Of a stretch of DNA of 20,036 bases, positions 1 to 18,827 are shown piece by piece. The position numbers and the translations under genes are program-made. The notes beneath the pieces are model-generated. The model saw only the letters and a list, made by a program, of their open reading frames with translations. It made no database searches and was not told where the DNA came from. This stretch comes from a virus, in the IMG/VR virus record IMGVR_UViG_3300006101_000654, positions 1 to 20,036 of that record. One strand, given 5' to 3'. Within the stretch, counting starts at the first letter, position 1. Each line of letters begins with the position of its first letter.

Positions 1-873
1 GTTGTCGGGGCAAGCGCCGAGGATGTCAAACACATCACCAACGTGGTCGGCAGGCTCATTGAGGTCTACTGTCTGGTAGCCGCTGGCTGGGTTGTGTGCA
101 CCGCCGAGGTCGAAGGCAAACAGATTGTTGTCCTTGGCCCATTTCACCATCATGTCCGAGATGAATCGTTCGTACAACTGTTGCGTTCCGTCTTGGATTG
201 CTGGGTTGATGTCGGCTTGCGCTTGCGTCTGTCCAGCGTGCACCCGTTGCAAGTAGAGGTTTTTGGGTATGTGGTGAAATGACGTGATTTGGTACATGCG
301 GCACATCAGGTCTTGGTCATCAAGCACAACGAAGGTGTCGTTGTAGCCACCCACCGCTTCGTAAACGCTCTTGCGCCACGCCCTGAGGTGATTTGGTGCA
401 TACCAGATGTATGCGACGTGATGAGGGTGTGGGGACTTTGATTTCACCACTTGGTAGTTGCGGTCTGCGTAGTATGACCACCCGTAGTTGTCATCAAACC
501 GAGAGTAGTTCGGTGTTCCATCCTCGTTTATTTGCGAGAAGTCGGAGTAGACGAAGCCAACGTCGGGCATTCCACCAAATGCCTTGACCACCTCGTCGAG
601 CGCCGTCGGCAGAAGAAGGTCGTCGTGGTCAAGTTCCAAGATGATGTCGCCGTTGCACAACTCCACCGCACGCTTTTTCAGTGCGCCCACGCCCTTGACA
701 TTTGGCTTGGCGTGTGAAACTCTGACACGGCTGTCGTCAGGCATGTCCCACTCTGCGCCGTTGTTCAGCAACACCACCCATTCCCAGTCGGGATTCGTCT
801 GCGCTTTGAGGCTTTCGTACACTTCATCTAGCCACTTTGGATTGTGACTGGGCGTGAACACTGAAATCGTCAT
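1..873 (-). CDS. Family 2 glycosyltransferase fused to the start of a methyltransferase-like domain (partial, runs off window)
   Basis: This open frame of 291 codons has no stop inside the window, so its C-terminus lies beyond position 1. Residues 1-40 begin MTISVFTPSHNPKWLDEVYE, the nucleotide-sugar-binding fold of GT-A family 2 enzymes. An acidic DHDD metal-binding motif lies near residues 80-84, and a VLDDQDLMCRM stretch resembles the usual ED.DL catalytic region. From about residue 250 the protein changes to FDLGGAHNPASGYQTVDL, which looks like motif I of a SAM-dependent methyltransferase. A two-domain enzyme is therefore inferred. The ATG lies 8 bases after the stop of the glycine-rich fibre gene, so the two are probably co-transcribed. 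A likely role is glycosylation of virion fibres or a host surface sugar. The substrate cannot be told. The glycosyltransferase call is firm; the methyltransferase call is moderate because only its beginning is visible. Confidence 0.85.
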   Translation of the reverse strand, partial: MTISVFTPSHNPKWLDEVYESLKAQTNPDWEWVVLLNNGAEWDMPDDSRVRVSHAKPNVKGVGALKKRAVELCNGDIILELDHDDLLLPTALDEVVKAFGGMPDVGFVYSDFSQINEDGTPNYSRFDDNYGWSYYADRNYQVVKSKSPHPHHVAYIWYAPNHLRAWRKSVYEAVGGYNDTFVVLDDQDLMCRMYQITSFHHIPKNLYLQRVHAGQTQAQADINPAIQDGTQQLYERFISDMMVKWAKDNNLFAFDLGGAHNPASGYQTVDLNEPADHVGDVFDILGACPDN

Positions 874-881
874 GGAGACGA

Positions 882-2507
882 CTATACCCCGTTTGTGTGG
901 ACGACTTCCTGATACCCACCGAGGTAGGGGTTCAGTGCCCCTGCGATGCCTGTGTATGGATAGGCCGCTCCGCTCGCCCAACAGATGCGCACAACGCCGT
1001 TTCCACCTTGAGGCCACCAGCCGATTGGTGGCGTGAAGGACTGGTTGTTGTAACTGGGGTTGTTGTTGATACCGCCGTAGCCGACAGTAATCGTGTAGGT
1101 GTTTCCTTGCACGAGACTGATGTTGTTAGCGTAAAGCAACGCTCCACCGCCACCACCGCCTGAACCCGTCCCAGCGTCGGGGGTTGCGTTCGCACCGTTT
1201 CCACCAAGACCACCGCCTGGGAAGCCGCCGTTGCAATACAGATACGCCTGCGGAGTATTGGTTGAGGTGAAGCCAGCAAACGTACCGCTAAGAAAGTTGT
1301 AGTAGTTGATGAGGCCACCGCCAGCAGTTCCCGTGTTGCCCCAAGTGGAACCGCCGAAGCCACCGTAAGTGTTGTACGAAGCGGCGCCAACCGTGTGGGC
1401 AGAGCAAGGGTTTGCAACCTGTCCGTTGTTTTGACTTGGAGTGACATACCAAGTCGTGTACGTCGTTGCTGGGCCGCTGTACGAAACTAGCGTGCAAGAC
1501 AATGCACCTGTGGCAGAGTTGTACGAAGTTACCTGTTGGATTGAGTAATAGTAATACGTTGTTCCACCAGCATCTGTTTGGGGGGTGAACGTAAGGTACA
1601 TACCCGTGGTGATTGGAAGTCCTGTTCCAATGGTTCCCGACCATGAGGCTGATAACGCACGGGCAGTTGACGTTCCCGACGTTCCCCAGCCACCGTAAAT
1701 GCCCGTGCCACCGCCACCACCACCGAAATAGGTTTCATTGTTGGTGTTTCCACCAGCACCACCGCCGCCGCCGCCCCCAGCAGCGCCAGTAGTCCCTGAG
1801 GCATTGTTCGCCCCACCCGTTCCACCAGCAGCATTGTAACCAGCGCAACCGCCGCCGCCAGCCTGTCGAGCAGCACTCCCCGTTCCACCAGCGCCACCTG
1901 CATAACCTGAGTACGTTACGGTTCCAAGAGTTCCTGATGTTGAAATGGCTCCGCCTGCTCCGCCCGTAGGGTTTGCGCCCGTTTTTCCACCATTAGCGGT
2001 AAGCGTGTACGTTCCATTGGAGAACGATGATGAGCCACCATTGCCGTAGTTGGAACTAGCAAAGGGCGTTCCACCAGAGCCAGAGCCACCGCCACCGCCG
2101 ATGCAAAGAATGGTGGCTGTGGCGGTCACGGGGCTTACCCAAGAGTAAGTGGTGGAATAACCGCCCGTACCATTGAATGGAATGTTTCCGTAGCCAACGT
2201 ACAACGTGACACTTGTGGTGATACCCGTGGCGCTTGACACTGTGAAGGTCGTGGCACTCACAACTGAAGCGACCGTCGTGACGTTCCTGCATACCGAGGT
2301 GGCGGTGGACGTAAACACGTTCATTCCAGCAGAGATGTTTCCCGTACTGGCGACGGTTACCGTCGTTCCCGAAACCGCCGACACAGCGTAAGCGTTGTAG
2401 TTGTTCGAGGTTGGTAGAAAAAGATGCGAGTAAACTGTGCGTGTGTCGGTAGTCTCAAACCCTGCACCACGAGCCGTTCCTTCAGCAAACGTATTTGGAA
2501 AGGGCAT
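882..2507 (-). CDS. Glycine-rich tail fibre / adhesin protein
   Basis: This 541-residue protein has an N-terminal part (about 1-100) containing a small beta module ending TGITTSVTLYVG. A long glycine-rich domain (about 110-500) follows, opening with a YSWVSPVTATATILCIGGGG segment and closing with NGVVRICWASG. Glycine-rich domains framed this way are typical of phage tail-fibre tips and receptor-binding adhesins. The start was placed at the ATG that overlaps the stop of the upstream collagen-like gene (TAATG). An 11-residue upstream extension is possible but less likely. It is the second member of a collagen-like plus glycine-rich pair; the other pair lies at 4818-9400. It is likely a virion surface protein, with host-range variation expected. 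The exact assignment as fibre tip is inference. Confidence 0.8.
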   Translation of the reverse strand: MPFPNTFAEGTARGAGFETTDTRTVYSHLFLPTSNNYNAYAVSAVSGTTVTVASTGNISAGMNVFTSTATSVCRNVTTVASVVSATTFTVSSATGITTSVTLYVGYGNIPFNGTGGYSTTYSWVSPVTATATILCIGGGGGSGSGGTPFASSNYGNGGSSSFSNGTYTLTANGGKTGANPTGGAGGAISTSGTLGTVTYSGYAGGAGGTGSAARQAGGGGCAGYNAAGGTGGANNASGTTGAAGGGGGGGAGGNTNNETYFGGGGGGTGIYGGWGTSGTSTARALSASWSGTIGTGLPITTGMYLTFTPQTDAGGTTYYYYSIQQVTSYNSATGALSCTLVSYSGPATTYTTWYVTPSQNNGQVANPCSAHTVGAASYNTYGGFGGSTWGNTGTAGGGLINYYNFLSGTFAGFTSTNTPQAYLYCNGGFPGGGLGGNGANATPDAGTGSGGGGGGALLYANNISLVQGNTYTITVGYGGINNNPSYNNQSFTPPIGWWPQGGNGVVRICWASGAAYPYTGIAGALNPYLGGYQEVVHTNGV

Positions 2508-3511
2508 TAGTACTTGACCTGTGAGGCAAAGACCGTCCAAGTGCTGGTACCCGTTGACATGATGGTGAACGTGTACACGTCAACGGTTGATGGGTTGGCG
2601 CTCGATGGAGCGGTGCCACCCTGCCAAAACGTTGTGATGCCATTTGACGTGTTGCCACTTGGTGGAAACTGGGTTGTACTTGAGTACGAGTTTGTTCCAT
2701 TGAGCGTGTAGGTAAACGGGGCATACGCAGTCGCACCGTTCAGTACTGAAAAGACTACGGTGGCGGACTGACCAGAAGTTGTTGGCGCACCCGTGATTGC
2801 AATGGTGTACTGACCGCCGACACCACCGTTGTAATAGGCGAAGGCAGGGTTAGTGGCAAGTGCAATGGTGACCGTGCTGGAAGATGCGATTGAACTACCA
2901 CCGAGAGTGAATGCCTCGTAGGGAGCATTGAACACGGCGTTCTGAGAGACGGCTGAGTTTCCTTGGTTGCCCTGAAAACCTTGGTTTCCCTGAGGCCCTT
3001 GAGGAAGGGTAAAGTTGAATACGCCCTGACCAGCAGTTGCGGAGACGTTGGTGACGATTGCAGGGTTGGGGTACGCCGTTGTGGTGACCGTACCGACGGC
3101 AATGGAAGATTGGTTACCTTGAAATCCTTGGTTACCTTGGAAACCTTGATAACCCTGAGGCCCAATCAAGGTTGACTGGGCACCTTGGATACCCTGTACG
3201 CCCTGAACTCCTTGCACCCCTTGGATACCCTGATTGCCCTGAAGTCCCTGTGAGCCGACGACGGCGGTAACCCACGAGCCGATAACGAGCGGAGTTGATG
3301 TGGTGATACCCGTTGAGTTGGCAACAAGAATGTTGGTCGAACCTACAATCTGCGTAATGACCGTGTTTACACCAGCGGACGCATTCTCCACTGACATTCC
3401 GACAGCCATACCAGTGGTAGAGGTGAAAGTAACGTTATTCGGGGCACCACCCACAAAGACGGGCGTAAACGGAGACCCAGATACTGGGACAAAATACTTC
3501 AGTTGTGCCAT
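2507..3511 (-). CDS. Collagen-like tail fibre protein (short paralog)
   Basis: This 334-residue protein carries Gly-X-Gln collagen-type repeats at about residues 85-135 and again near 170-185. Between them is a module of roughly 40 residues starting SSIAVGTV and ending NFTLPQG, a common spacer in phage fibres. Residues 20-75 form a small beta module ending TGITTSTPLVIG. The C-terminal 110 residues (from GAPTTSGQSATVVF to the final KY) match the C-terminus of the 1085-residue fibre at 6143-9400. Trimeric collagen-like fibres are known in tailed phages, and this is likely a virion appendage. The ATG lies one base after the kinase stop (TGAAATG). Its stop overlaps the next start as TAATG, suggesting translational coupling with the glycine-rich protein. 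Confidence 0.85.
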   Translation of the reverse strand: MAQLKYFVPVSGSPFTPVFVGGAPNNVTFTSTTGMAVGMSVENASAGVNTVITQIVGSTNILVANSTGITTSTPLVIGSWVTAVVGSQGLQGNQGIQGVQGVQGVQGIQGAQSTLIGPQGYQGFQGNQGFQGNQSSIAVGTVTTTAYPNPAIVTNVSATAGQGVFNFTLPQGPQGNQGFQGNQGNSAVSQNAVFNAPYEAFTLGGSSIASSSTVTIALATNPAFAYYNGGVGGQYTIAITGAPTTSGQSATVVFSVLNGATAYAPFTYTLNGTNSYSSTTQFPPSGNTSNGITTFWQGGTAPSSANPSTVDVYTFTIMSTGTSTWTVFASQVKY

Positions 3512-3512
3512 T

Positions 3513-3932
3513 TCACTGCGCCTTTCGGATTAGTTCCAAAACCATCTGAAGTTCTTGCTCAACGGTCAAACCGTCTTTGATTACGAGGTCTGCGTCAGGC
3601 GTTTCCCACATGGCGTTGGTGTCGGGGTATGGACTTGACCCTATTCTATCTACCCAAATCAAGAAGTCTGGTTCGCCAAATGCTTCACGGGTGTCTGCCG
3701 TCGGGCAAACAAAATCAACGACGACGGTGAACTCTTGTTCCTCAAACAGACGAGCCATTCCACCAAGACGACGTGCTTGCTCGATGCGGTCTGCGTGCGA
3801 GAAGCCAAGGTCGTTACTAACGTGCTTGCGAACTGCGTCTGCGTTGAGGTGAATAGCGCCAAGCCATTCTGACAGCGCCTCTGCAAGAACTGTTTTCCCA
3901 GCCGTCGGAAGCCCGATTATCTGGATAATCAC
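3513..3932 (-). CDS. Adenylylsulfate (APS) kinase-like P-loop kinase
   Basis: This is a small P-loop kinase of 139 residues from the chosen GTG start. The Walker A motif GLPTAGKT sits at residues 7-14. The stretch LNADAVRKHVSNDLGFSHAD, followed by R, aligns by eye with the conserved DGDNVRHGL..DLGF...DR region of CysC-type APS kinases. VVVDFVCP matches their 'AFISP' strand. APS kinase phosphorylates adenylylsulfate to PAPS, the sulfate donor for sulfotransferases. The C-terminal lid region is shorter than in cellular CysC (about 200 residues). The GTG start overlaps the sulfotransferase stop as GTGA and puts the P-loop at the usual distance from the N-terminus. A TTG at 3947 is an alternative that adds five residues. 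A related small nucleotide or sugar kinase cannot be excluded, but the sulfotransferase next door favours APS kinase. Confidence 0.75.
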   Translation of the reverse strand: MIIQIIGLPTAGKTVLAEALSEWLGAIHLNADAVRKHVSNDLGFSHADRIEQARRLGGMARLFEEQEFTVVVDFVCPTADTREAFGEPDFLIWVDRIGSSPYPDTNAMWETPDADLVIKDGLTVEQELQMVLELIRKAQ

Positions 3933-4591
3933 TGTCCCTGCTTCCAAAACAACGAGTTGTCCATGTAGATTTCACTGTCCGCTTCCGTCATTTTCTGAAG
4001 GCGCTTGACTTGCGAATACGACAGACTGTTGAAGGTCAACTGGCTCTGCGTGTTGGCATTGTAGTTCGGCATGGTGTATTTGGCGTTGATGAGGTCGGGC
4101 AGGTCAAACCGTGTGCAGATTGCTTTGCGAACGTCCTCTAGCGTTTCACCATTGAGTTGGTTGTCACGGAGAAGCACGTCCACTCGCTTGACGTTCGTGC
4201 GCACCAGTTCGCCGTCCACCTCGATTGGCTTGGTGTTCAAGTCATTCAGTGGCACTGGCGGTACCCCGTCCCACGAGTAAACGAACATCTTGCTCTGGTA
4301 GTTGGTTAGTGCTACTTCGTACTCATCAAGCCACTCGTCAAAGGTGAAATAATCGTCCATAATCTGCGTGCGAATGTGGGTGTAGTGGCTGACGAGACGA
4401 CGCATTGGCTCTCGGATTGAACTGATGACAAACGTCTCGTCGTCAACGTCCTTCCAACCGTAATGTTGCTGGCTTCCAGTGGTGAAAAGTTCGTGTCCTT
4501 CCACGCCGTGGGCGTAGACCAAAGGGTCAAGCAGGGCAGACTTGATGTACGTTCCGCCTGCTTTTGGAATGTGGTGATGGAAGATTTCCAT
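3929..4591 (-). CDS. Sulfotransferase family protein
   Basis: This 220-residue protein has HIPKAGGTYIKSAL near residues 7-20, the 5'-phosphosulfate-binding loop of PAPS-dependent sulfotransferases. ISSIREPMRRLVSHY (about 56-70) is the 3'-phosphate-binding element with the conserved Arg and Ser-type residues. The length and the spacing of these motifs fit the Golgi-type Sulfotransfer_2 group. The enzyme would transfer sulfate from PAPS to a carbohydrate hydroxyl. It sits inside the fibre operon. Its start overlaps the stop of the 75-residue gene (TAATG), and its stop overlaps the start of the APS-kinase-like gene (GTGA). The natural reading is a PAPS-making and PAPS-using pair. Whether the acceptor is a virion glycan or a host surface polymer is unknown. 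Confidence 0.82.
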   Translation of the reverse strand: MEIFHHHIPKAGGTYIKSALLDPLVYAHGVEGHELFTTGSQQHYGWKDVDDETFVISSIREPMRRLVSHYTHIRTQIMDDYFTFDEWLDEYEVALTNYQSKMFVYSWDGVPPVPLNDLNTKPIEVDGELVRTNVKRVDVLLRDNQLNGETLEDVRKAICTRFDLPDLINAKYTMPNYNANTQSQLTFNSLSYSQVKRLQKMTEADSEIYMDNSLFWKQGQ

Positions 4592-4818
4592 TAGGCGATT
4601 GGGTTGGGATTGGGCGCAAAGGGAATGGCGCTAAGGGTCTGTGGTGGAATAAAGTTTGCGCCGTCGTATGTCCAACCGACATTTGGAACGATGTCGTCAT
4701 TGGTTACGTCAATGATGTGCGCCGAAGAGGTGAACGACGTAGCGAGCGTGTCGTCCGTGTTGAGGACGAGCGTTACGTTTCCACCAGCGTCTACGAATGC
4801 GATTACTGCGTTTGCCAT
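4591..4818 (-). CDS. Small virion-associated hypothetical protein
   Basis: This 75-residue protein begins MANAVIAFVDAGGNVTLVLN and contains NVGWTYDGANFIPP near residues 46-59. A 'VGW.YDG..F..P' segment recurs in short phage proteins that sit beside tail fibres, so a fibre-associated or assembly role is possible. No catalytic motif or membrane segment is seen. The start overlaps the stop of the glycine-rich fibre gene (TAATG), with a GAGGTGG Shine-Dalgarno-like stretch about 7 bases upstream. The stop overlaps the sulfotransferase start in the same way. The C-terminus is Pro/Ala/Asn-rich. I do not recognise a specific family. Confidence 0.7.
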   Translation of the reverse strand: MANAVIAFVDAGGNVTLVLNTDDTLATSFTSSAHIIDVTNDDIVPNVGWTYDGANFIPPQTLSAIPFAPNPNPIA

Positions 4819-6143
4819 TAGTTGACCACCTCGTTTGTCGTGGTATTTACATTAGTTGACGGGAAGTTGCGAGTAAGACCAGCGATGCCCCACACGATGC
4901 GCACCGCCCCACCGCCTGCGCCAGCCTGAATGTTGGCGGCTAGGCTAGGGCTGTTTACCGACCCAGAGGCTGTGGTTCCGCTGTACGTCGAGTTGACCGT
5001 GAAAGAAGATGCGTTAGCACTGGTAATCAGGTACGTCCCGTTATAGGTGGCATTGATGCCACCTAGGTAAACGAACTGCCCTGCCTTGAAGGTGTTTGAG
5101 GCAGTAACAGTTGTCACGCTTCCGTTCCCAGTTATTGTGACGGGATTTATGAGCGTTGATGTTCCACCACCACTTGCAGTTCCTACCTGCACCGTGTACG
5201 TTTGATTTGGAACGACTGAGTAGTTGTTGATGTATGCCAATGCTCCACCACCGCCAGAAGCAATGCTTGCAAAGGTAGTGGTCTGCCCAGCGCCACTGTA
5301 CGGCGGACTTGGGACGCTAAACCCTGCGCCACCGCCGAACGCTCCACCGCCACCCGAACCGCCGTAGTCAAGAGTTGGTGATTGGTAGTTGCTCCAAGAG
5401 ACACCTATACCGCCAGCAAGCCCATAAGTACTCGTGTCTGAAGCGCCAGCCGTGCCCACCGTGTCTATTTGATTGCCACTTGCGTCCGACTGTCCGCCGT
5501 TTCCACCAGCAGAACTTCCGCTACCGCCACCTGTTCCGCCCGACGCAACGTTGGAAGCAAAGGTGCCCTTTGCCCCACCCGTTCCTGAGTAGCCAGAGTT
5601 TGCGCCATACACGCCCGTTCCGCCACCACCACCGCCGCCGCTCACTCGTGCGCTGTTTTGGTAGTAGCCAGACCCGCCACCACCGCCGCCGTCGGTTGAC
5701 GTTCCGCCTGCACTTCCGCCACCGCCAGTATTTAGTGTCGAACCGCCTGCACCGCCCGTGGAAGAGTATCCGCCTGCGCCACCGCCACCTGCACCGTTGT
5801 AGGCGTTGCCAGCACCGCCTGAGCCACCAGTTCCTGCCAAAACCGTGCCACCCGTACCGTTGGCTTTTCCACCAGAAGAAGCCACAATGCTTGCGTTTCC
5901 AAAGTACGAAGTTCCGCCGCCGTACAATCCACCGCCTGCGCCAATGCACACAATGCTGACGTTGTACACACCTGCTGGGCACGTCCATGTGTACGTTTGC
6001 ACATTGTTTGATGCCGTGGAAGAAAGGGAGTACTGAGTTGCCGTGTAAAGGTGCGAGCCAGTTGATTGGTTGAATTGAACGGTTTGGAACTCACCGTAAG
6101 CGTCCACCGACATCTCTGCTCGTGCTGAAATGATGGGGGACAT
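4818..6143 (-). CDS. Glycine-rich tail fibre / adhesin protein (paralog)
   Basis: This 441-residue protein has an N-terminal lead (about 1-50) and then TYTWTCPAGVYNVSIVCIGA, which opens a glycine-rich domain full of GGGG runs (about 70-320). The domain closes with GGAVRIVWG near residue 415. The arrangement matches the glycine-rich protein at 882-2507. Within the domain, residues about 330-395 form an inserted beta module (TASNTFKAGQFVYLGGINAT). A very similar module occurs in the 1085-residue fibre directly upstream (TASNSLVAGQEVYITGATGN). The protein is expected on the virion surface as a fibre tip or adhesin. The start overlaps the upstream stop as AAGTACTAATG, the same 11 bases found at the other collagen/glycine-rich junction. 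Confidence 0.8.
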   Translation of the reverse strand: MSPIISARAEMSVDAYGEFQTVQFNQSTGSHLYTATQYSLSSTASNNVQTYTWTCPAGVYNVSIVCIGAGGGLYGGGTSYFGNASIVASSGGKANGTGGTVLAGTGGSGGAGNAYNGAGGGGAGGYSSTGGAGGSTLNTGGGGSAGGTSTDGGGGGGSGYYQNSARVSGGGGGGGTGVYGANSGYSGTGGAKGTFASNVASGGTGGGSGSSAGGNGGQSDASGNQIDTVGTAGASDTSTYGLAGGIGVSWSNYQSPTLDYGGSGGGGAFGGGAGFSVPSPPYSGAGQTTTFASIASGGGGALAYINNYSVVPNQTYTVQVGTASGGGTSTLINPVTITGNGSVTTVTASNTFKAGQFVYLGGINATYNGTYLITSANASSFTVNSTYSGTTASGSVNSPSLAANIQAGAGGGAVRIVWGIAGLTRNFPSTNVNTTTNEVVN

Positions 6144-9100
6144 TAGTACTTATTCAGGTTTAGGAGTAGCGTCCAAGTATTGGTGCCCGTACAGATTACG
6201 TTGATGACGTACACATCGAGGGTAGAAACGTCCGCACTAGACCACGCCATTCCACCTTGGTAGTACGACGTGATGCCGTTGTTCGTAGCACCTTGCGCTG
6301 GGAGAGTGGTGAACGATGCGGTTGACGTTGCACCCGTGGCTGGATTTGTTACCGAGAAGGACGACGACGTGGCGCTGAGGACAACCCACGAACCGTTGAA
6401 GTTGCTGTTTCCTGTCGCACCCGTAATGTACACTTCCTGCCCTGCTACCAGAGAGTTGCTGGCAGTGTAGGTAACAACGCCACCCGTATACGAAATGGCA
6501 GAGATGGCAGTCGAAGCGCCCGCTTGGTATCCGTTCACTGAAATGTTGCTGGGCAAGTACGCAGTTGCCGAGTTGTTGACCATGAGGGCAACTGTGATTG
6601 ACTGACCAGCAGTAGTTGGAGCATTTGTCAAGTTCAACTGCCACGGAGCGGTTGGTGAATACGAGTTGTAGTAGTACACCGACTGGGTGTTGAGAGGGAT
6701 TGACGCTGGGACGGCGTTGCTCAACTGCGCCGTCGAGAGGTTTACGCTTTCGATTGGTGAAGCGATGATGGGGAAGTTGATGATGGGCGAAGTCAGGGTC
6801 TTGTTCGTAAGGGTCTGAGAAGCCGTCGTTCCCACAACCTGCTGGGCAATACTGGCTGGGTCGTAGGTGGACGTACTCATGTTTCCACCACCCTGAGGGC
6901 CTTGAGTACCATTCCCCGAAGCGGTTGTGTCTAGCCAGAGAAGCGTCGTGTCGTATGGGGGCAGACCGTTGCCAGAGGTGAAAATGCCTTGCGCACCTTG
7001 GTTACCTTGGTTTCCTTGATTACCCTGATAGCCCTGCGCACCGCTGGTTCCATTTGTGCCTGCCTGACCCTGTGGGCCTTGTGGCAAAGTGAAGTTGAAC
7101 AGTCCTTGCCCAGCAGTCACACTGACGTTTGTGACGACGGCGGGATTGGCGTATGACGTGGTGGAAACAGTGCCGACGGCGATTGAGGATTGGTTACCTT
7201 GGAACCCCTGATTTCCTTGGACACCCTGAAGCCCCTGATTGCCCTGATTTCCTTGGTTACCCTGTGCCCCTTGATAAGTGACTTGTTGGGCAGTGAAAAT
7301 AACCCCAGGAGTTGCTGGGACGGTGGGGCTTGTCTGCGAACCTGAAGTGGTGATGGCAATAGTTGTACTAGACGGTGCCCACATCAACTGAATGTAGTCG
7401 TTTGCATTGGCGTTGACTATGTAGTTGATAGAGGCGATTAGTGCGCCAGAACCGCCGTGGCTATTTCCTGAGACGTTGTAGATGGAGTTGCTTTCAACAA
7501 CGTCAACACCGTTTTGGCGTATCCATACGTCCACGTTGTCGGAGTTACTGTCCGAGTTGGTGAACTGGATTGAGTACTGAACGTTGTACGTTCCTGCGTT
7601 GCCAAACGTAACTTTGTTTCCACCAACAATGGTCACGCCGTAGTTGGCAACTGTTGTGTTGATGTTTACGATGTTGGCAACAGTCGTGGAAGAAACGGTT
7701 TGCGTAGTTGTGTCGTAAGCAGAAAGGTAGTTGGCGATTACACCACCAGCACCCTGAATACCCTGCGGCCCTTGTGGGCCGACGGAGTTGGTCTGAATGA
7801 ACGAGATGTTGTCGGTGCCAATGCGAATTGAGCCGTCAGGATTGGAACCGTTGCCATTCTCAATCCATGCCGTTCCTGCATAGACCGTTCCGTCGGTAAC
7901 GAAAACGTAGTCGCCTTCTTCGACCTGACCAACGAGGTGATTGTCGTAGTCGGTAGCACGGGTCAGTTTCCATTTTGCCGATGACGAGCCAGTGGCGGTG
8001 ACTGTGTAGATGCCGTTTTGGGTTTTGTCAGACTGACCAGCAATAAGAACACGGTCACCGACTGCAAGGTAAGGGGTGGTGTAACCATCAATCGAAAGGG
8101 TGCCGTTCGTCGTCGCAACAATGTATGCCCCGACACCCGTACCGTTTTCAGCGTCTGCACTACCAGCCGTGTATGAAGGAGAGTTTCCAAGGGGCGTAGT
8201 TTGGACTGCCTCACACGATTGGTGGGCGTTCAGCGTTGAGGAAGCGCCTTGGACACCTTGCGTTCCTTGGACACCTTGCGTTCCTTGATTTCCTTGATTT
8301 CCCTGTGAGCCAGTGTTACCTTGTACACCTTGCACGCCCTGTGTACCTTGCGCACCAGTGTTACCAATTAGCCCTTGATTACCTTGGAACCCCTGATTGC
8401 CCTGTACGCCCTGTACTCCTTGCGTACCCTGCACTCCTTGAACGCCTTGTACGCCGTTATTGCCGCTGTTGCCTTGGTTTCCCTGTAGACCTTGCGAACC
8501 AACCGCACCCGTAAGGAAAAGGGTGTTTGGGCTACGAGGTACACTGTCGCCAACCGAGTAGTCAACCGTAAAGATGACGTAGGCGCTTGCTGGAAACGTT
8601 CCGTCTACGGTTGTCAAAATGCCTTCTGCATAGTTTGTTGTAGGCGCTGATTGAGCGCACAGTCGAACTCGCTGACCAACTTGAAGTGCGCTAAAGCCGT
8701 AAGGATTTCCACTGTTGAATGGAGTGGAAATTGTTAGCGTTGTTCCGACAAGGCTCGCCCCATAGGTAATGGGTTGATTGTTGTTTACAACTGGCGTGTA
8801 CCCAACACCTTGGAAGCCTTGGCTTCCCTGTGTCCCTTGACTTCCTTGCGTCCCCTGAAAGCCTTGGGTACCTTGGGTACCTTGGGTACCCTGCGTGCCC
8901 GTAGAACCCCACTGAAGCCCTGATGCACCAACAGTGAGCACTTGTCCCGTAGAGCCTTGTGGCAGTCGAGCGAGTGAGTTGGCACCTGAGCCAATGAGAA
9001 GGTCGCCAGATGCGACGATTTGCCCAACGGTTTCAGCAACGGCGTAGTTTGCCTCTGAGATGTCCGTCGAGGTCATGATTGGAACAACGGACGCACCCGA

Positions 9101-9400
9101 AGCGTGCGACATTCCAGTACCCGACGTAGCGGTGTCAAACGCACGCACCACGCCCGTCAAAGTGACATTAGAACCTGACCAGTTGTAGACGTTGGCTGGG
9201 ACGTAGATGTGCTCTTCGAGCGACGTTCCGTAGTCGAGGGCGAGGTAGAAACCGCCGTTGATGCCAAGTCCTGCCCACGAGCCGATGCCTGCCGAGAAGG
9301 TCAGGTAGATGGTGGTATCCGTGGCCCCGATGGGCGACGTTAGAAGCGCAGCGTATGGTTCGCCCGTGTAACTGTTGAGCGAATAGGGAGTTCTTGCCAT
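6143..9400 (-). CDS. Large collagen-like tail fibre protein with C1q/TNF-like domain
   Basis: This 1085-residue modular fibre reads in order: an N-terminal virion-attachment part (about 1-170, with GDLLIGSGANSLARLPQG near its end); collagen-like Gly-X-Gln repeats (about 172-203); a beta domain (205-298); a long collagen stretch (298-390); and a domain with AVGDRVLIAGQSDKTQNGIY (about 440-465), common in phage fibres. Next come a C1q/TNF-like jelly-roll (about 555-700, with VTFGNAGTYNVQYSIQF), two further collagen segments around an SSIAVGTV module (about 700-815), and a C-terminal module ending NKY. Trimeric virion fibres are built this way. The C-terminal module carries a small inserted beta domain (TASNSLVAGQEVYITG) that the short paralog at 2507-3511 lacks. 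AGGGG lies 5 bases before the ATG. A small hairpin separates it from the upstream gene. Confidence 0.88.
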   Translation of the reverse strand: MARTPYSLNSYTGEPYAALLTSPIGATDTTIYLTFSAGIGSWAGLGINGGFYLALDYGTSLEEHIYVPANVYNWSGSNVTLTGVVRAFDTATSGTGMSHASGASVVPIMTSTDISEANYAVAETVGQIVASGDLLIGSGANSLARLPQGSTGQVLTVGASGLQWGSTGTQGTQGTQGTQGFQGTQGSQGTQGSQGFQGVGYTPVVNNNQPITYGASLVGTTLTISTPFNSGNPYGFSALQVGQRVRLCAQSAPTTNYAEGILTTVDGTFPASAYVIFTVDYSVGDSVPRSPNTLFLTGAVGSQGLQGNQGNSGNNGVQGVQGVQGTQGVQGVQGNQGFQGNQGLIGNTGAQGTQGVQGVQGNTGSQGNQGNQGTQGVQGTQGVQGASSTLNAHQSCEAVQTTPLGNSPSYTAGSADAENGTGVGAYIVATTNGTLSIDGYTTPYLAVGDRVLIAGQSDKTQNGIYTVTATGSSSAKWKLTRATDYDNHLVGQVEEGDYVFVTDGTVYAGTAWIENGNGSNPDGSIRIGTDNISFIQTNSVGPQGPQGIQGAGGVIANYLSAYDTTTQTVSSTTVANIVNINTTVANYGVTIVGGNKVTFGNAGTYNVQYSIQFTNSDSNSDNVDVWIRQNGVDVVESNSIYNVSGNSHGGSGALIASINYIVNANANDYIQLMWAPSSTTIAITTSGSQTSPTVPATPGVIFTAQQVTYQGAQGNQGNQGNQGLQGVQGNQGFQGNQSSIAVGTVSTTSYANPAVVTNVSVTAGQGLFNFTLPQGPQGQAGTNGTSGAQGYQGNQGNQGNQGAQGIFTSGNGLPPYDTTLLWLDTTASGNGTQGPQGGGNMSTSTYDPASIAQQVVGTTASQTLTNKTLTSPIINFPIIASPIESVNLSTAQLSNAVPASIPLNTQSVYYYNSYSPTAPWQLNLTNAPTTAGQSITVALMVNNSATAYLPSNISVNGYQAGASTAISAISYTGGVVTYTASNSLVAGQEVYITGATGNSNFNGSWVVLSATSSSFSVTNPATGATSTASFTTLPAQGATNNGITSYYQGGMAWSSADVSTLDVYVINVICTGTNTWTLLLNLNKY
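8240..8510 (-). repeat. Collagen-like coding repeat, 9-base unit
   Basis: Degenerate tandem 9-base units encode Gly-X-Gln triplets (GVQ, GTQ, GNQ, GFQ). This is the longest uninterrupted collagen-like block of the fibre gene, about 90 residues. Third-position glutamine dominates and proline is absent, so stability would not depend on hydroxyproline. Shorter blocks of the same kind occur around 6990-7085, 7190-7275, 8800-8905, 2955-3005 and 3105-3255. Confidence 0.85.
8862..8888. repeat. Perfect tandem triplicate of a 9-base unit
   Basis: CCTTGGGTA is repeated three times without change and encodes three Gly-Thr-Gln triplets on the minus strand. The neighbouring units differ at synonymous positions, so this stretch looks like a recent slippage product and a likely site of length variation. 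Confidence 0.9.
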
Positions 9401-14070: not shown

Positions 14071-14886
14071 CTAGAAGGGGTCGTCGGGGGTGGTGGAATA
14101 GAGGGGGCAGATGTCCTTGAACGAGCACCACTTATCGCACAGATTGTTGGCGATTGGTGGAAAGTAGCCAGCGTTGTACCAGCCCTCAATCTTCGCCCAC
14201 GCCTCTCGGACACGGCGCTCTGCGTAGCGGACATCTTCGTCGGTGACATCAATCACCAGCGTCTTGCCAAACTGAACGTAGAGCAGTCGAATCTGCTTGG
14301 GGCGCTCTCCAAGAACTTGCTCACACAGGTAGGCGTAAATCTTGGCAGGTAGAATGGCTGCCGCTTTGTACTTGTCGGTAGGGACTTTGCCAGTCTTGTA
14401 GTCCACAATCACCAACGAGCCGTCAGGGTCACGGTCTAAGCGGTCTAGGATGCCACGGAGCGTCCACCCGCCCATGTCTACGTCCATCTTGATTTCGATG
14501 CCTTCTGAGGTGATTTTCTCTGGGTTCTCCATCGTGAAGTAGGTGCGGATGTACTTGGCGAGGTCACGGGCGAACGTTTGCACGCCGACCTCATCGAGTT
14601 CCATTTCACCAGCAATCTCGTCGCTCACGAGCGTGGGGAATAACTCACGCATCACTTCGAGGGTGTAGTCGAGGGTGCGGAGTTCGGGTGTCTCGGTGGT
14701 TCGCAGGAACACGGTTTCCAGCACTTCGTGGAACACGGTGCCACGGTAAGTCGCCATCTTCTTCGCCTCTGGGAGACGCTCGATGGTGGAATACTGATAC
14801 TGGCGTGGACACGTCTCGATTTGGTTCACTCGGCTAGGTGATACGCCATAGGGCTTTTCGCCTAGATACACAGGAACGCTCGACAC
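14071..14886 (-). CDS. Cas4/RecB-like PD-(D/E)XK nuclease with Fe-S cluster cysteines
   Basis: This 271-residue protein shows the RecB-nuclease motifs in order: VSPSRVNQIETCPRQYQY with Cys26; GTVFHEVLE with His53; GILDRLDRD with Asp148; VIVDYKTGK with Asp162 and Lys164; and a C-terminal Cys250, Cys254, Cys260 cluster (CDKWCSFKDIC). One early cysteine plus three late ones is the 4Fe-4S arrangement of Cas4 and AddB-type exonucleases. All catalytic residues are present, so activity on DNA ends is expected, probably in recombination or genome processing. No CRISPR genes are nearby. The start at 14886 gives a complete N-terminus. It is separated from the upstream 90-residue gene by 27 bases. Confidence 0.9.
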   Translation of the reverse strand: MSSVPVYLGEKPYGVSPSRVNQIETCPRQYQYSTIERLPEAKKMATYRGTVFHEVLETVFLRTTETPELRTLDYTLEVMRELFPTLVSDEIAGEMELDEVGVQTFARDLAKYIRTYFTMENPEKITSEGIEIKMDVDMGGWTLRGILDRLDRDPDGSLVIVDYKTGKVPTDKYKAAAILPAKIYAYLCEQVLGERPKQIRLLYVQFGKTLVIDVTDEDVRYAERRVREAWAKIEGWYNAGYFPPIANNLCDKWCSFKDICPLYSTTPDDPF

Positions 14887-15920: not shown

Positions 15921-16418
15921 TTATTCGGCGTGAGTGTTGGCAAGCATGCCAGTGGCGGTATCAGCATTGAAGGAAGCGATTGCCGCCCTCTGAGCCAAAG
16001 CCTGCGCCTCAGGGTCTTTCTCGTATGACGCTTGTCCGCCCAATGGGGCGATGTGGTCGAGAATGGCCTCGTGAGCCTGCGCTGCATCGAGGTGGGCCTG
16101 AATCGCACGGGTCGCACGCATGCGGTCACCGTTAGACATTTCACTGCTGTGCTTTAGAACCATGTTCTTGATTCCTTCGGCGGTGGTGCGGTGAATCTGG
16201 GCGAGGGGCTTGGTCAGGCCATTGGAGATGCCGATGCCACGAGCGAAGTTCTGGGCGTTGGTGGAAAGGAAGTGTGCGCTGCTCACGGCCTTTTCCATGT
16301 CTGCACCCGACTGCCACTGGTTGCCGTGGAAGGCGTGTCCCTTCACGTCACCCTTGGCTATTTCACCAACCTTGGCCCAGTTTGGGGCAAGTGCGTCTGT
16401 TGAGAAAGGGTTGGTCAT
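15921..16418 (-). CDS. GHxFxGNQ-motif protein 1 (Ala/His-rich, unknown function)
   Basis: This is a 165-residue protein. It begins MTNPFSTDALAPNWAKVGEI and carries KGDVKGHAFHGNQW at residues 22-35. A helical region follows with AQIHRTTAEG (about 89-98) and AIQAHLDAAQAHEAILDHIA near 115-135. The N-terminal block is nearly identical to that of the next gene upstream. The start is the ATG at 16418 with AAGGAG five bases before it; a GTG two codons earlier is less likely. Short GHxFxGNQ segments occur, as I recall, in head-associated proteins of other actinophages, but I know of no proven role. It could be an internal virion or head-assembly protein. No enzyme motif is seen. Confidence 0.72.
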   Translation of the reverse strand: MTNPFSTDALAPNWAKVGEIAKGDVKGHAFHGNQWQSGADMEKAVSSAHFLSTNAQNFARGIGISNGLTKPLAQIHRTTAEGIKNMVLKHSSEMSNGDRMRATRAIQAHLDAAQAHEAILDHIAPLGGQASYEKDPEAQALAQRAAIASFNADTATGMLANTHAE

Positions 16419-16427
16419 GGTCACTCC

Positions 16428-17378
16428 TTAGTGGTTTCGGAACTCTGCGCCCGTGTCAGCGCCAGTGTCACGACTTAGATTTTCGGCAACGGTGCTTGCG
16501 CCTCGTGCAAGCATGGTGTTGTCACGGAGAATAGGACTTGTTGAGCCGCTTGCGTGTTGTTCGGCAACCCAGTTGTGAAGTTCTGCGGCGTGGTCGTGGG
16601 CGGCGATTGCCGACTTCAGAGCGCCCTGCTTCTCAGGGTTAGTCTCCTTGGCAAGGGCGTTTTTCAGCACTTGGCTGGCAATGCCGTGCTCGAAGGCTGC
16701 TGCACGGTGGGCGTTGGCGATTTGTGCGCCAGTACCACCGTGCTGAACAAGGTCACGAGCGTGCGAGGCAGCCATGAGAGCAGACCAGCCAGCGCCGTCC
16801 CGTCGTACATGGTCAAATCCCTTGTCGAAGGGGTTTGAGGCGTACTGATTGCCGTGAAACTCGTGGCCCTTTACGTCGCCCTTCGTCACAAAAGACTTTT
16901 CAGCACCAGAGAGGATGACGTTGCCGTCGGTCACGCCTGCATTGCGACCAGACGTTGCCTTCATGGTTGCATCGGCGGCCTTCAGGGTGTTTTCAGCACT
17001 GGGGTTGTCGGCAGCGGCGTAGTGTGCGGCTGCTGCGGCTTCGTGCAACTTGGCGGCACCCTCTTCCATTGCGTATGAACGCCCGTTGGGGTTGTGGTAA
17101 CTGGCGGCAAGTTGACGCATGCGGCCTGCCTCTTCGAGGTGCATACGAGCCATGCGGTCATGGGCCATGGTGGAAACGGTTGGCAACTTTTTGCCTGCGC
17201 TCGCTGCCATCTGCGACGCTCGGTCACGAAGTGAGTTCAGAGCATCCCGTGTTTCACCCGTGGAACGAGCCGTGTATTGGTTGCCGTTGAAAGCATGGCC
17301 TGCCAACTCGTACTTCAGGATTTCACTGGCGGACTTCCAAACTGGAACCAGTGCGTCAGTAGAGAAGGGGTTTTCCAT
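16428..17378 (-). CDS. GHxFxGNQ-motif protein 2 (two-unit, unknown function)
   Basis: This 316-residue protein looks like two units of the same family in tandem. Unit 1 (1-150) starts MENPFSTDALVPVW, has GHAFNGNQY at 27-35 and an Ala/His-rich helix region (KLHEAAAAAHYAA). Unit 2 (about 158-316) has TKGDVKGHEFHGNQYASNPF at 165-184, then IANAHRAAAFEHG and AIAAHDHAAELHNWVAEQHA. The start overlaps the stop of the upstream paralog as TAATG. Its own TAA lies inside the AAGGAG site of the downstream paralog, so all three are translationally linked. There are no catalytic residues, no membrane segment and no signal peptide. Structural or DNA-condensing roles are possible but unproven. Confidence 0.72.
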   Translation of the reverse strand: MENPFSTDALVPVWKSASEILKYELAGHAFNGNQYTARSTGETRDALNSLRDRASQMAASAGKKLPTVSTMAHDRMARMHLEEAGRMRQLAASYHNPNGRSYAMEEGAAKLHEAAAAAHYAAADNPSAENTLKAADATMKATSGRNAGVTDGNVILSGAEKSFVTKGDVKGHEFHGNQYASNPFDKGFDHVRRDGAGWSALMAASHARDLVQHGGTGAQIANAHRAAAFEHGIASQVLKNALAKETNPEKQGALKSAIAAHDHAAELHNWVAEQHASGSTSPILRDNTMLARGASTVAENLSRDTGADTGAEFRNH

Positions 17379-17884
17379 TAGAGGTTTCCCATGCCTTTCG
17401 TCATTTCATCAGCGTTGGCGCTGGCGTAAGAAGCGTTTTCCGAAGCGTCCTTAGCCGAAGCAACAAGAGCGTTCATCTTGTTGCGAGAAACCGTGCTACC
17501 CGTGGCTGGCTTGATTGACTGCGTAGCGACCTTTGCTGAAGCGGAAGAAGCCTTGATGTGTGCATCTGAGGCGGCGTTGTGAGCGTCAATCGCCTTGCGT
17601 GCTGCGCCCCACTTGGAGAGGGGGATTTTCGCACCCTTCATTCCTGCCTCGATTGCCTTAGCAGCCTCTCGGTGGGCAAAAGCAATGTTGCTGTGTTCGC
17701 CAGCCGAACCAGCGCTGTTTCCGCCACGCACGTCTTTGAGCGTCTGTAGGGCGTGGTCACGAAGTTCACCAGAAGCAGTGGTGTACTGGTTCCCGTTGAA
17801 TGCGTGCCCAGCAGTCTCGTATTTCACCACGGGGTAGCGAGAGAGGGATTTGAGTAGTTCGTCGGGGTGGAAGCCAGATGACAC
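17378..17884 (-). CDS. GHxFxGNQ-motif protein 3 (Ala/Ser-rich, unknown function)
   Basis: This 168-residue protein starts at a GTG with AAGGAG six bases upstream. Residues 17-34 (YPVVKYETAGHAFNGNQY) carry the family motif. Then come IAFAHREAAKAIEAG (about 68-82) and AIDAHNAASDAHIKASSASA (about 98-117), matching the 'AHRxAA ... AIxAHxxAAxxH' pattern of its two neighbours. The N-terminal NPFSTDAL block is replaced by GFHPDELLKSL. It is the first gene of the three-gene paralog set and follows the intergenic region with the plus-strand RNA candidate. The function is unknown. Confidence 0.7.
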   Translation of the reverse strand: MSSGFHPDELLKSLSRYPVVKYETAGHAFNGNQYTTASGELRDHALQTLKDVRGGNSAGSAGEHSNIAFAHREAAKAIEAGMKGAKIPLSKWGAARKAIDAHNAASDAHIKASSASAKVATQSIKPATGSTVSRNKMNALVASAKDASENASYASANADEMTKGMGNL

Positions 17885-17992: not shown

Positions 17993-18071
17993 GACTGACT
18001 TGGGGGCGCTGGACACAACGCCAAGTACATTCACACCGACCCCTGCCGAAAGGTGGGGGATTCGGTTTATT
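17993..18071 (+). ncRNA. Candidate small RNA on the strand opposite to all genes
   Basis: From the predicted start, about 79 nt can fold into two stem-loops. Stem 1 (17999-18025) pairs CUUGG..CG with CGCCAAG around a ten-base loop CUGGACACAA. Stem 2 (18035-18066) is a 13-bp stem with a GAAA tetraloop followed by UUAUU. Two G-U pairs in stem 2 become A-C mismatches on the opposite strand, so the plus strand is the better folding one. A 14-base segment (18008-18021) recurs at 19925-19938 and is therefore complementary to the lysin mRNA start. No tRNA or known RNA family is recognised. Confidence 0.45.
18035..18071 (+). terminator. Terminator-like hairpin ending the plus-strand RNA
   Basis: ACCGA-CCCCTGCC, loop GAAA, GGTGGGGG-(AT)-TCGGT, then TTATT. 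The stem is long and GC-rich, but the T tract is short and broken, so termination may be partial. It overlaps the stop codon of the deformylase gene on the other strand. Confidence 0.5.
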
Positions 18072-18564
18072 GGGGCCTGTTTGCGTCCCAAAGTGAGGTG
18101 AAATGGCCTCGCTCCGCTTCGCCAATGTGCTCCAAGAGCAGGTATCCATCGAGATGGTCTGTCTCGTGCTGAAAGATGCGAGCGAGCAATCTTTCCCCTT
18201 CAATCCTGTACTGGTTCCCGTCAAGGTCAAAGGCCGTCAAGGTCGCTTTGTACGAGCGGCTGATTTGCCACCCGAACTTGGGCACCGACAAGCAGCCTTC
18301 GGGCGTGACTTCGATGTCAAGGGGGTCAGTGAAAACCTCTGGGTTGATGGCGACGTGAGCGCCCGTGCCGTCGCCGCTGTCCCAAACGAACATGCGGTGC
18401 GAGTAGCCGATTTGGTTGGCGGCAAGCCCGACACCGAGGTGAAAGTACATGGCCTCAACCATCTCGGCGGCAATCATCTTTATGTTGTCTGTGATTTCAC
18501 TGACTGGGGTCGTGGGGGCTTCCAAAATGGGGTCGCCGTAGAAACGCACGGCTGGGATGTTCAC
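18067..18564 (-). CDS. def: Peptide deformylase
   Basis: This 165-residue protein has all three deformylase motifs: GVGLAANQ (residues 44-51), EGCLS (89-93) with the metal-binding Cys, and HETDH (133-137) with the catalytic Glu and the two His ligands. It removes the formyl group from the N-terminal methionine of new proteins. The GTG start overlaps the stop of the coiled-coil gene as GTGA and leaves a normal deformylase N-terminus (IPAVRFYGDPIL). Translation is probably coupled. Phage-encoded deformylases are known, especially from aquatic phages, and may support the translation of abundant virion proteins. All key residues are intact. It is the last gene of the small-gene cluster. Confidence 0.95.
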   Translation of the reverse strand: MNIPAVRFYGDPILEAPTTPVSEITDNIKMIAAEMVEAMYFHLGVGLAANQIGYSHRMFVWDSGDGTGAHVAINPEVFTDPLDIEVTPEGCLSVPKFGWQISRSYKATLTAFDLDGNQYRIEGERLLARIFQHETDHLDGYLLLEHIGEAERGHFTSLWDANRPQ

Positions 18565-18827
18565 CGTGCGCCCATTTCTCTCTTCGCCTCTTCGAGCAGT
18601 TCGGCGGTGAAGTCCTCTGGCGACAGTTCGGTCTTGGCGTGGGACATCAACTTGCCGCAAGCGATGCTGAACGCCCATGTGTACAGGCTGAGTTCCTCGT
18701 CGAGGTGCGTCAACTCCTTGCGGTAGCCGAGAACCATCTGGTCGTGCTTGGCAATCAGCCCTGCCATCCCAGTGCGCATGGTAGCCAACTTCTCTTCGAG
18801 GTCGGCAATCTGCTTCGACTTACGCAC
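18561..18827 (-). CDS. Small coiled-coil hypothetical protein
   Basis: This 88-residue protein, from a GTG start, has RKSKQIADLEEKLATMRTGM at its N-terminus and then HDQMVLGYRKELTHLDEELS. It is strongly helical with heptad-like leucines. A short hydrophobic stretch (YTWAFSIACGKLM) lies near residues 49-61. There are no enzyme motifs. It overlaps the Cys-cluster protein upstream by 8 bases and the deformylase downstream by 4 bases, so it is part of a tightly coupled chain. The function is unknown; a coiled-coil adaptor is the most one can say. Confidence 0.65.
   Translation of the reverse strand: MRKSKQIADLEEKLATMRTGMAGLIAKHDQMVLGYRKELTHLDEELSLYTWAFSIACGKLMSHAKTELSPEDFTAELLEEAKREMGAR

Follow-up and report, generated by a model that had tools for sequence, protein, structure and literature searches.

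The DNA examined here, referred to as the window, is a 20,036-nucleotide (20-kb) piece of a virus contig from a lake-type phage. On its minus strand, a sulfotransferase gene and an APS-kinase-like gene are embedded in a run of fibre genes. In order of transcription, the genes are as follows:

6143 to 9400, minus strand: collagen-like tail fibre, 1085 aa (Pfam Collagen, 4e-24; PHROG tail fibre, 2e-46)
4818 to 6143, minus strand: glycine-rich fibre-like protein, 441 aa (sequence, PHROG search)
4591 to 4818, minus strand: 75-aa gene directly 5' of the sulfotransferase (ORF; PHROG 14370, unknown function)
3929 to 4591, minus strand: sulfotransferase, 220 aa, ATG start, Sulfotransfer_2 type (Pfam PF03567, PHROG, family profile, motifs)
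3513 to 3932, minus strand: APS-kinase-like protein, 139 aa, compact, GTG start (ORF, Pfam, model)
2507 to 3511, minus strand: collagen-like tail fibre, 334 aa, immediately 3' of the kinase (Pfam Collagen, 1e-8; PHROG tail fibre, 3e-14)
882 to 2540, minus strand: glycine-rich fibre-like protein, start uncertain (sequence)
1 to 1017, minus strand: glycosyltransferase family 2 plus methyltransferase gene, interrupted by the contig end (Pfam Glycos_transf_2, 1.8e-10)

Rereading of the coordinates and the junction confirmed the two reading frames and the 4-nt GTGA overlap described in the initial annotation; the sulfotransferase/kinase junction reads CAGTGATT. The stop codon of the 75-aa gene overlaps the sulfotransferase start as TAATG, and the kinase stop lies 1 nt from the start of the next fibre gene. 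Because of these two overlaps and the 1-nt gap, the genes around the pair look translationally coupled. The Pfam and PHROG searches also bore out the placement of the pair between two fibre gene pairs, with a glycosyltransferase–methyltransferase gene further down. The gene cut by the contig end is intact in contig L004 (67.9 kb), which is almost identical to the window across the 9.9 kb compared, and there consists of a GT2 domain followed by a methyltransferase-like part.

Most of the changes between the window and contig L005 fall at third codon positions; dN/dS is about 0.12 in the kinase gene and about 0.21 in the sulfotransferase gene. Given this bias and the low ratios, neither gene is a chance reading frame, and purifying selection acts on both. 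The window capsid protein is closest to those of Arthrobacter and Microbacterium phages (48–52%), and an actinobacterial host is therefore likely. Among phage records, neither a near DNA match to the window nor a match to the sulfotransferase was found, and kinase matches were limited to 28–40% identity; isolates thus offer no direct context. Elsewhere on the minus strand of the window, three consecutive genes (15921 to 17884) carry GHxFxGNQY-like motifs (GHAFHGNQW, GHAFNGNQYT and GHEFHGNQY). Positions 18067 to 18678 encode a phage peptide deformylase (NCBIfam, 134 bits, over the cut-off), and positions 14071 to 14886 a Cas4/AddB-like nuclease (TIGR00372, 53.9 bits, under the cut-off of 65).

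The sulfotransferase matches Pfam Sulfotransfer_2 (PF03567; 7.3e-5) at 23.4 bits against a cut-off of 22, a slim margin that is backed by the family profile. In PHROG it matches galactose-3-O-sulfotransferase (4.6e-4). A profile built from 18 relatives retrieved heparan sulfate 6-O-sulfotransferase (E = 0.0019), the 2-O enzyme scoring more weakly. The family keeps the motif forms HIPKxGG for binding of the 5'-phosphosulfate and R-x-P-x2-R-x2-S for binding of the 3'-phosphate, and H43, a candidate catalytic base, is invariant in the 18 relatives. The two motifs are located as follows:

4553 to 4573, minus strand: 5'-phosphosulfate-binding motif HIPKAGG, residues 7–13 (H7, K10 and G13 invariant in 18 relatives)
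4388 to 4414, minus strand: 3'-phosphate-binding motif R60-EP-MRRLV-S68 (R60, P62 and S68 invariant in 18 relatives)

The kinase matches Pfam APS_kinase (PF01583) over residues 2–84 with 4.1e-15 and 56.6 bits (cut-off 21.1). Against the strict NCBIfam apsK model (TIGR00455) it reaches 57.3 bits, short of the cut-off of 138.7. Structure prediction, suggested in the initial annotation as a check, was carried out on the kinase with an alignment of 19 relatives and gave a mean pLDDT of 96.3. When the model was ranked against the PDB, the best 30 entries were all APS kinases or proteins with APS-kinase-type domains, aligned across all 139 residues with Z of 16.9–19.5 and rmsd of 1.5–2.1. Gluconate kinases form the next structural group, from Z 15.9 and with 16–17% identity. 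Two segments carry the residues of interest:

3891 to 3914, minus strand: P-loop GLPTAGKT, residues 7–14 (invariant or near-invariant in 19 relatives)
3786 to 3839, minus strand: APS-contact segment D32 to R49, with D32, R35, F44 and R49 (alignment with Salmonella CysC)

The four contact residues are invariant in the alignment from the phages through to Salmonella CysC and correspond to D480, R483, F492 and R497 of Mycobacterium tuberculosis CysC. In that enzyme Asp480 has been proposed as the base, Arg483 and Arg497 anchor the phosphosulfate, and the adenine of APS is stacked against Phe492; the lid contributes Arg559, which contacts the ATP adenine, and the catalytic Lys562, a transition-state residue (PMC4373884). 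The CysC lid segment that holds this Arg and Lys, CExRDPKGLYKKAR, is deleted in the whole phage kinase family, in agreement with the earlier description of a compact kinase without much of the lid; R96 is a candidate for the residue taking the place of the lid Lys. LDGD has likewise lost its first Asp across the family; in the present kinase Asn stands there, and the motif reads LNAD. By sequence and model the protein resembles an APS kinase, and most likely it also acts as one. The APS-kinase fold and contacts, together with the PAPS-binding motifs of its partner, are consistent with the proposed specialised pair of a PAPS-making and a PAPS-using enzyme. The lid deletion, the Asn in LDGD and the apsK score below the cut-off count against this reading.

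A profile scan with the window-type sulfotransferase matched 29 contigs. In all ten of the nearest, which span sulfotransferase identities from 100% down to about 28–32%, the kinase lies directly 3' of the sulfotransferase. The kinase is long in L090 and short in the remainder, one sulfotransferase type thereby pairing with both the short form (window, L005, L006, L009 and L011) and the long form (L090). The 4-nt overlap is shared by the window and most lineages with this nearest sulfotransferase type. Lack of joint conservation in related phages had been named at the outset as grounds for abandoning the functional pairing; this did not apply, the pair recurring in five or six lineages. No kinase was found within the flanks (up to 5 kb per side) of the 19 more distant sulfotransferases (clade L095–L113), and the pairing is therefore not universal.

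The surroundings of the pair were also compared. In the distant contig L006 the order is glycine-rich fibre, sulfotransferase, kinase, collagen-like fibre, fibre, small gene and GT2–methyltransferase; the wider operon order is thus kept even though the sulfotransferase is only about 30% identical to that of the window. In L011 a 687-aa collagen-like fibre lies immediately 5' of the pair. The window, L005, L006 and L011 all have the pair set among genes for virion fibres. In L090 it follows a gene of the GDP-mannose dehydratase/epimerase type.

The kinase has at least 568 viral relatives, which fall into two size classes, about 139 aa (short) and about 252 aa (long), the latter with a C-terminal NMNAT-type nucleotidyltransferase. 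Sulfotransferases of several types were found within five genes of the kinase in 27 of 62 distinct neighbourhoods (two of the 27 being weak), and Pfam added a further case, L012. More than half of the 62 neighbourhoods are without a sulfotransferase within five genes, which counts against a sulfation role. Sulfotransferase families other than that of the window recur next to other members of the kinase family; in the Pelagibacter single-cell contig L193, a Sulfotransfer_1 gene (3e-26) immediately precedes the kinase.

A Fisher test on these neighbourhoods (p = 4e-12) was set aside as biased, the sulfotransferase profiles having been seeded mainly from kinase neighbours. It was replaced by an independent Pfam test across the whole of 49 kinase contigs. 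Pfam detected a sulfotransferase in 18 of them, and in 16 of these 18 its distance from the kinase was at most 2.5 kb, against an expectation of 3.7 (P < 1e-6). On the kinase tree, sulfotransferase adjacency requires at least six changes (13 by parsimony) and so does not go back to a single inherited event. In the same 49 contigs (1.78 Mb, mostly fragments), no CysH/CysD-family gene (PF01507) was detected, controls being positive in 14 of 14 genomes. Classical ATP sulfurylase was likewise absent from the 49 contigs, a result counted against the sulfation reading.

Several further features were seen around members of the family. Proteins with a phrog_7759 N-terminal part precede the kinase gene at L180:1788-2630 and L022:5153-6001, and the C-terminal part of the L180 protein weakly matches Sulfotransfer_1 (0.0019). 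Members of one uncharacterised protein family turn up repeatedly close to the short kinase or to the pair (L007:6419-7102, L009:5592-6281, L011:8725-9474 and L090:2344-3069); the L009 copy matches phrog_7084 and the other three are alike by eye. The kinase is flanked by tRNA genes at L007:5193-5984 and L009:4349-5186. In L009 a sulfotransferase separates tRNA-Asp from the kinase, and at the same place L007 has tRNA-Asn and no sulfotransferase.

The long form differs by its C-terminal domain, which matches NMN adenylyltransferases (6.9e-7) and carries the conserved motifs GRYQPWHEGH, YGRDVGYKIE and ISATxKR. Fusions of this type were seen at L043:6001-6756, L090:5708-6460 and about 50 further loci. 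The C-terminal tail of the long-kinase model has pLDDT below 50 and is unreliable, so the nucleotidyltransferase was judged by its sequence only. The fusion is a candidate for either a miniature PAPS synthase or an NAD-type enzyme. Short-form contigs searched, including the window-matching L003 and L004, contained no separate nucleotidyltransferase. In Pelagibacter contigs L192 (5995-6793) and L196 (5995-6776), kinase and nucleotidyltransferase are adjacent separate genes inside a breakdown operon of the glycine betaine/DMSP type, and in L192 a HalD-like oxygenase comes next. A DUF2061 membrane protein usually follows the long kinase (for example L043:6813-7028), and a DUF2061 match was present in 47 of 60 downstream neighbours scanned for short and long kinases together; the literature gives no function for DUF2061.

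Taken together, it is probable that the pair forms a phage-encoded sulfation cassette, in which the kinase makes PAPS and the co-translated sulfotransferase uses it to sulfate a carbohydrate of a surface structure, either the phage fibre or the host envelope. APS would be provided by the ATP sulfurylase of the host, although in long-form phages the fused nucleotidyltransferase could supply it instead. In the late phase of gene expression the compact kinase, its truncated lid notwithstanding, would phosphorylate host APS to give PAPS, from which the sulfotransferase would then move sulfate to an acceptor, most likely the carbohydrate of a glycosylated phage fibre or of the host envelope. Because sulfotransferases recur beside the kinase and CysH/CysD is absent from the 49 contigs, PAPS is most likely supplied for sulfation rather than for sulfate reduction. 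Together with the fibre-gene context, these two observations support the link to surface structures rather than to general sulfur metabolism put forward in the initial annotation; that interpretation as a whole is borne out in part, largely where it concerns the enzyme pair.

The choice of acceptor appears about even. The position of the pair among late fibre genes and beside the glycosyltransferase–methyltransferase gene suggests a glycan of the fibre. In its most elaborate form, the pair and this gene would together build a sulfated, methylated glycan on the collagen-like fibres of the phage, the lid-less kinases would represent a reduced sulfate-activation system and the 252-aa fusion a miniature PAPS synthase; this combination is rather unlikely. 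A host-envelope target, through which an altered receptor glycan would block superinfection or change phage adsorption, is a serious possibility, if a little short of an even chance. The nucleotide-sugar dehydratase gene ahead of the L090 pair and the glycosyltransferase genes near Pelagibacter relatives of the kinase fit it, as does the similarity of the sulfotransferase to carbohydrate sulfotransferases. The placement among virion fibre genes in four contigs is better suited to late modification of the virion but is still compatible with a host target.

The kinase might instead have a small-molecule substrate other than APS, such as a sugar or a nucleoside of NAD salvage, and the long form would then adenylylate or cytidylylate the product. 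Room for another substrate, at least in part of the family, is left by the kinases without a nearby sulfotransferase and by the frequent NMNAT-like fusion. One upstream neighbour is a weak PnuC match, a relative in a Stenotrophomonas phage adjoins NADAR and MazG-like genes, and some cellular relatives lie in osmolyte or organosulfur operons without a sulfotransferase, as in Pelagibacter, which also counts against sulfation. The missing lid residues point the same way. Nevertheless, the invariant APS contacts, the 30 APS-kinase entries at the head of the structural ranking, the recurrent linkage to sulfotransferases and the lack of the nucleotidyltransferase domain in the short-form contigs make this explanation improbable. 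A helper role in assimilatory sulfate reduction, as published surveys interpret viral cysC (PMC10914622, PMC9529941), in which the kinase would serve CysH and the making of cysteine and have nothing to do with the sulfotransferase, is very improbable in view of the lack of CysH/CysD genes in the 49 contigs (mostly fragments), the excess of sulfotransferases beside the kinase and the 4-nt overlap. Truncation of the lid and loss of the LDGD Asp might also mark a degenerate, inactive relative retained for a different function, for instance as scaffold of the sulfotransferase, but the (near-)invariant P-loop and contact residues and the kinase dN/dS make this highly unlikely. If the sulfation cassette operates as proposed, an APS kinase working without the lid Lys would inform which parts of the enzyme are essential.

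Compared with known APS kinases (PF01583; the Penicillium enzyme, human PAPSS1 and M. tuberculosis CysC), the phage kinase shares the fold, the P-loop and the four APS contacts. It differs in lacking the lid with its adenine-stacking Arg and catalytic Lys, in reading LNAD for LDGD and in falling below the apsK cut-off. The nearest named viral structure is the APS kinase of Ralstonia phage RSL1 (B2ZYE1; TM 0.90, 36% identity), which has 231 aa against the 139 aa found here. The general arrangement recalls rhizobial NodPQ–NodH, in which a dedicated PAPS supply and a sulfotransferase decorate a surface signal. NodPQ provides both ATP sulfurylase and APS kinase in full, whereas the phage locus has the compact kinase only.

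Sulfotransferases are likewise borne by other phages, as with PHROG 3347 (galactose-3-O-sulfotransferase) and contigs of OM43 phages, for which the function was stated to be unclear (PMC10580990). In contrast to these, the present sulfotransferase gene overlaps the gene of a kinase that would supply its co-substrate and lies within a fibre operon. No report of a coupled phage cysC–sulfotransferase cassette was found in the literature; each component was already known from phages.

Viral cysC genes of freshwater and hadal phages have been counted as auxiliary metabolic genes of assimilatory sulfate reduction (PMC10914622, PMC9529941), and cysC genes and whiB-encoding actinophages were reported in one study. 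These genes, which also come from freshwater phages, probably belong to the same broad kinase group, as judged without sequence-by-sequence comparison. Unlike the published reading, the neighbourhoods described here point to sulfation. The genomic linkage to sulfotransferases and the lack of a PAPS reductase in the contigs, mostly fragments, suggest that many of these phage 'sulfur-cycle' genes serve the sulfation of surface structures.
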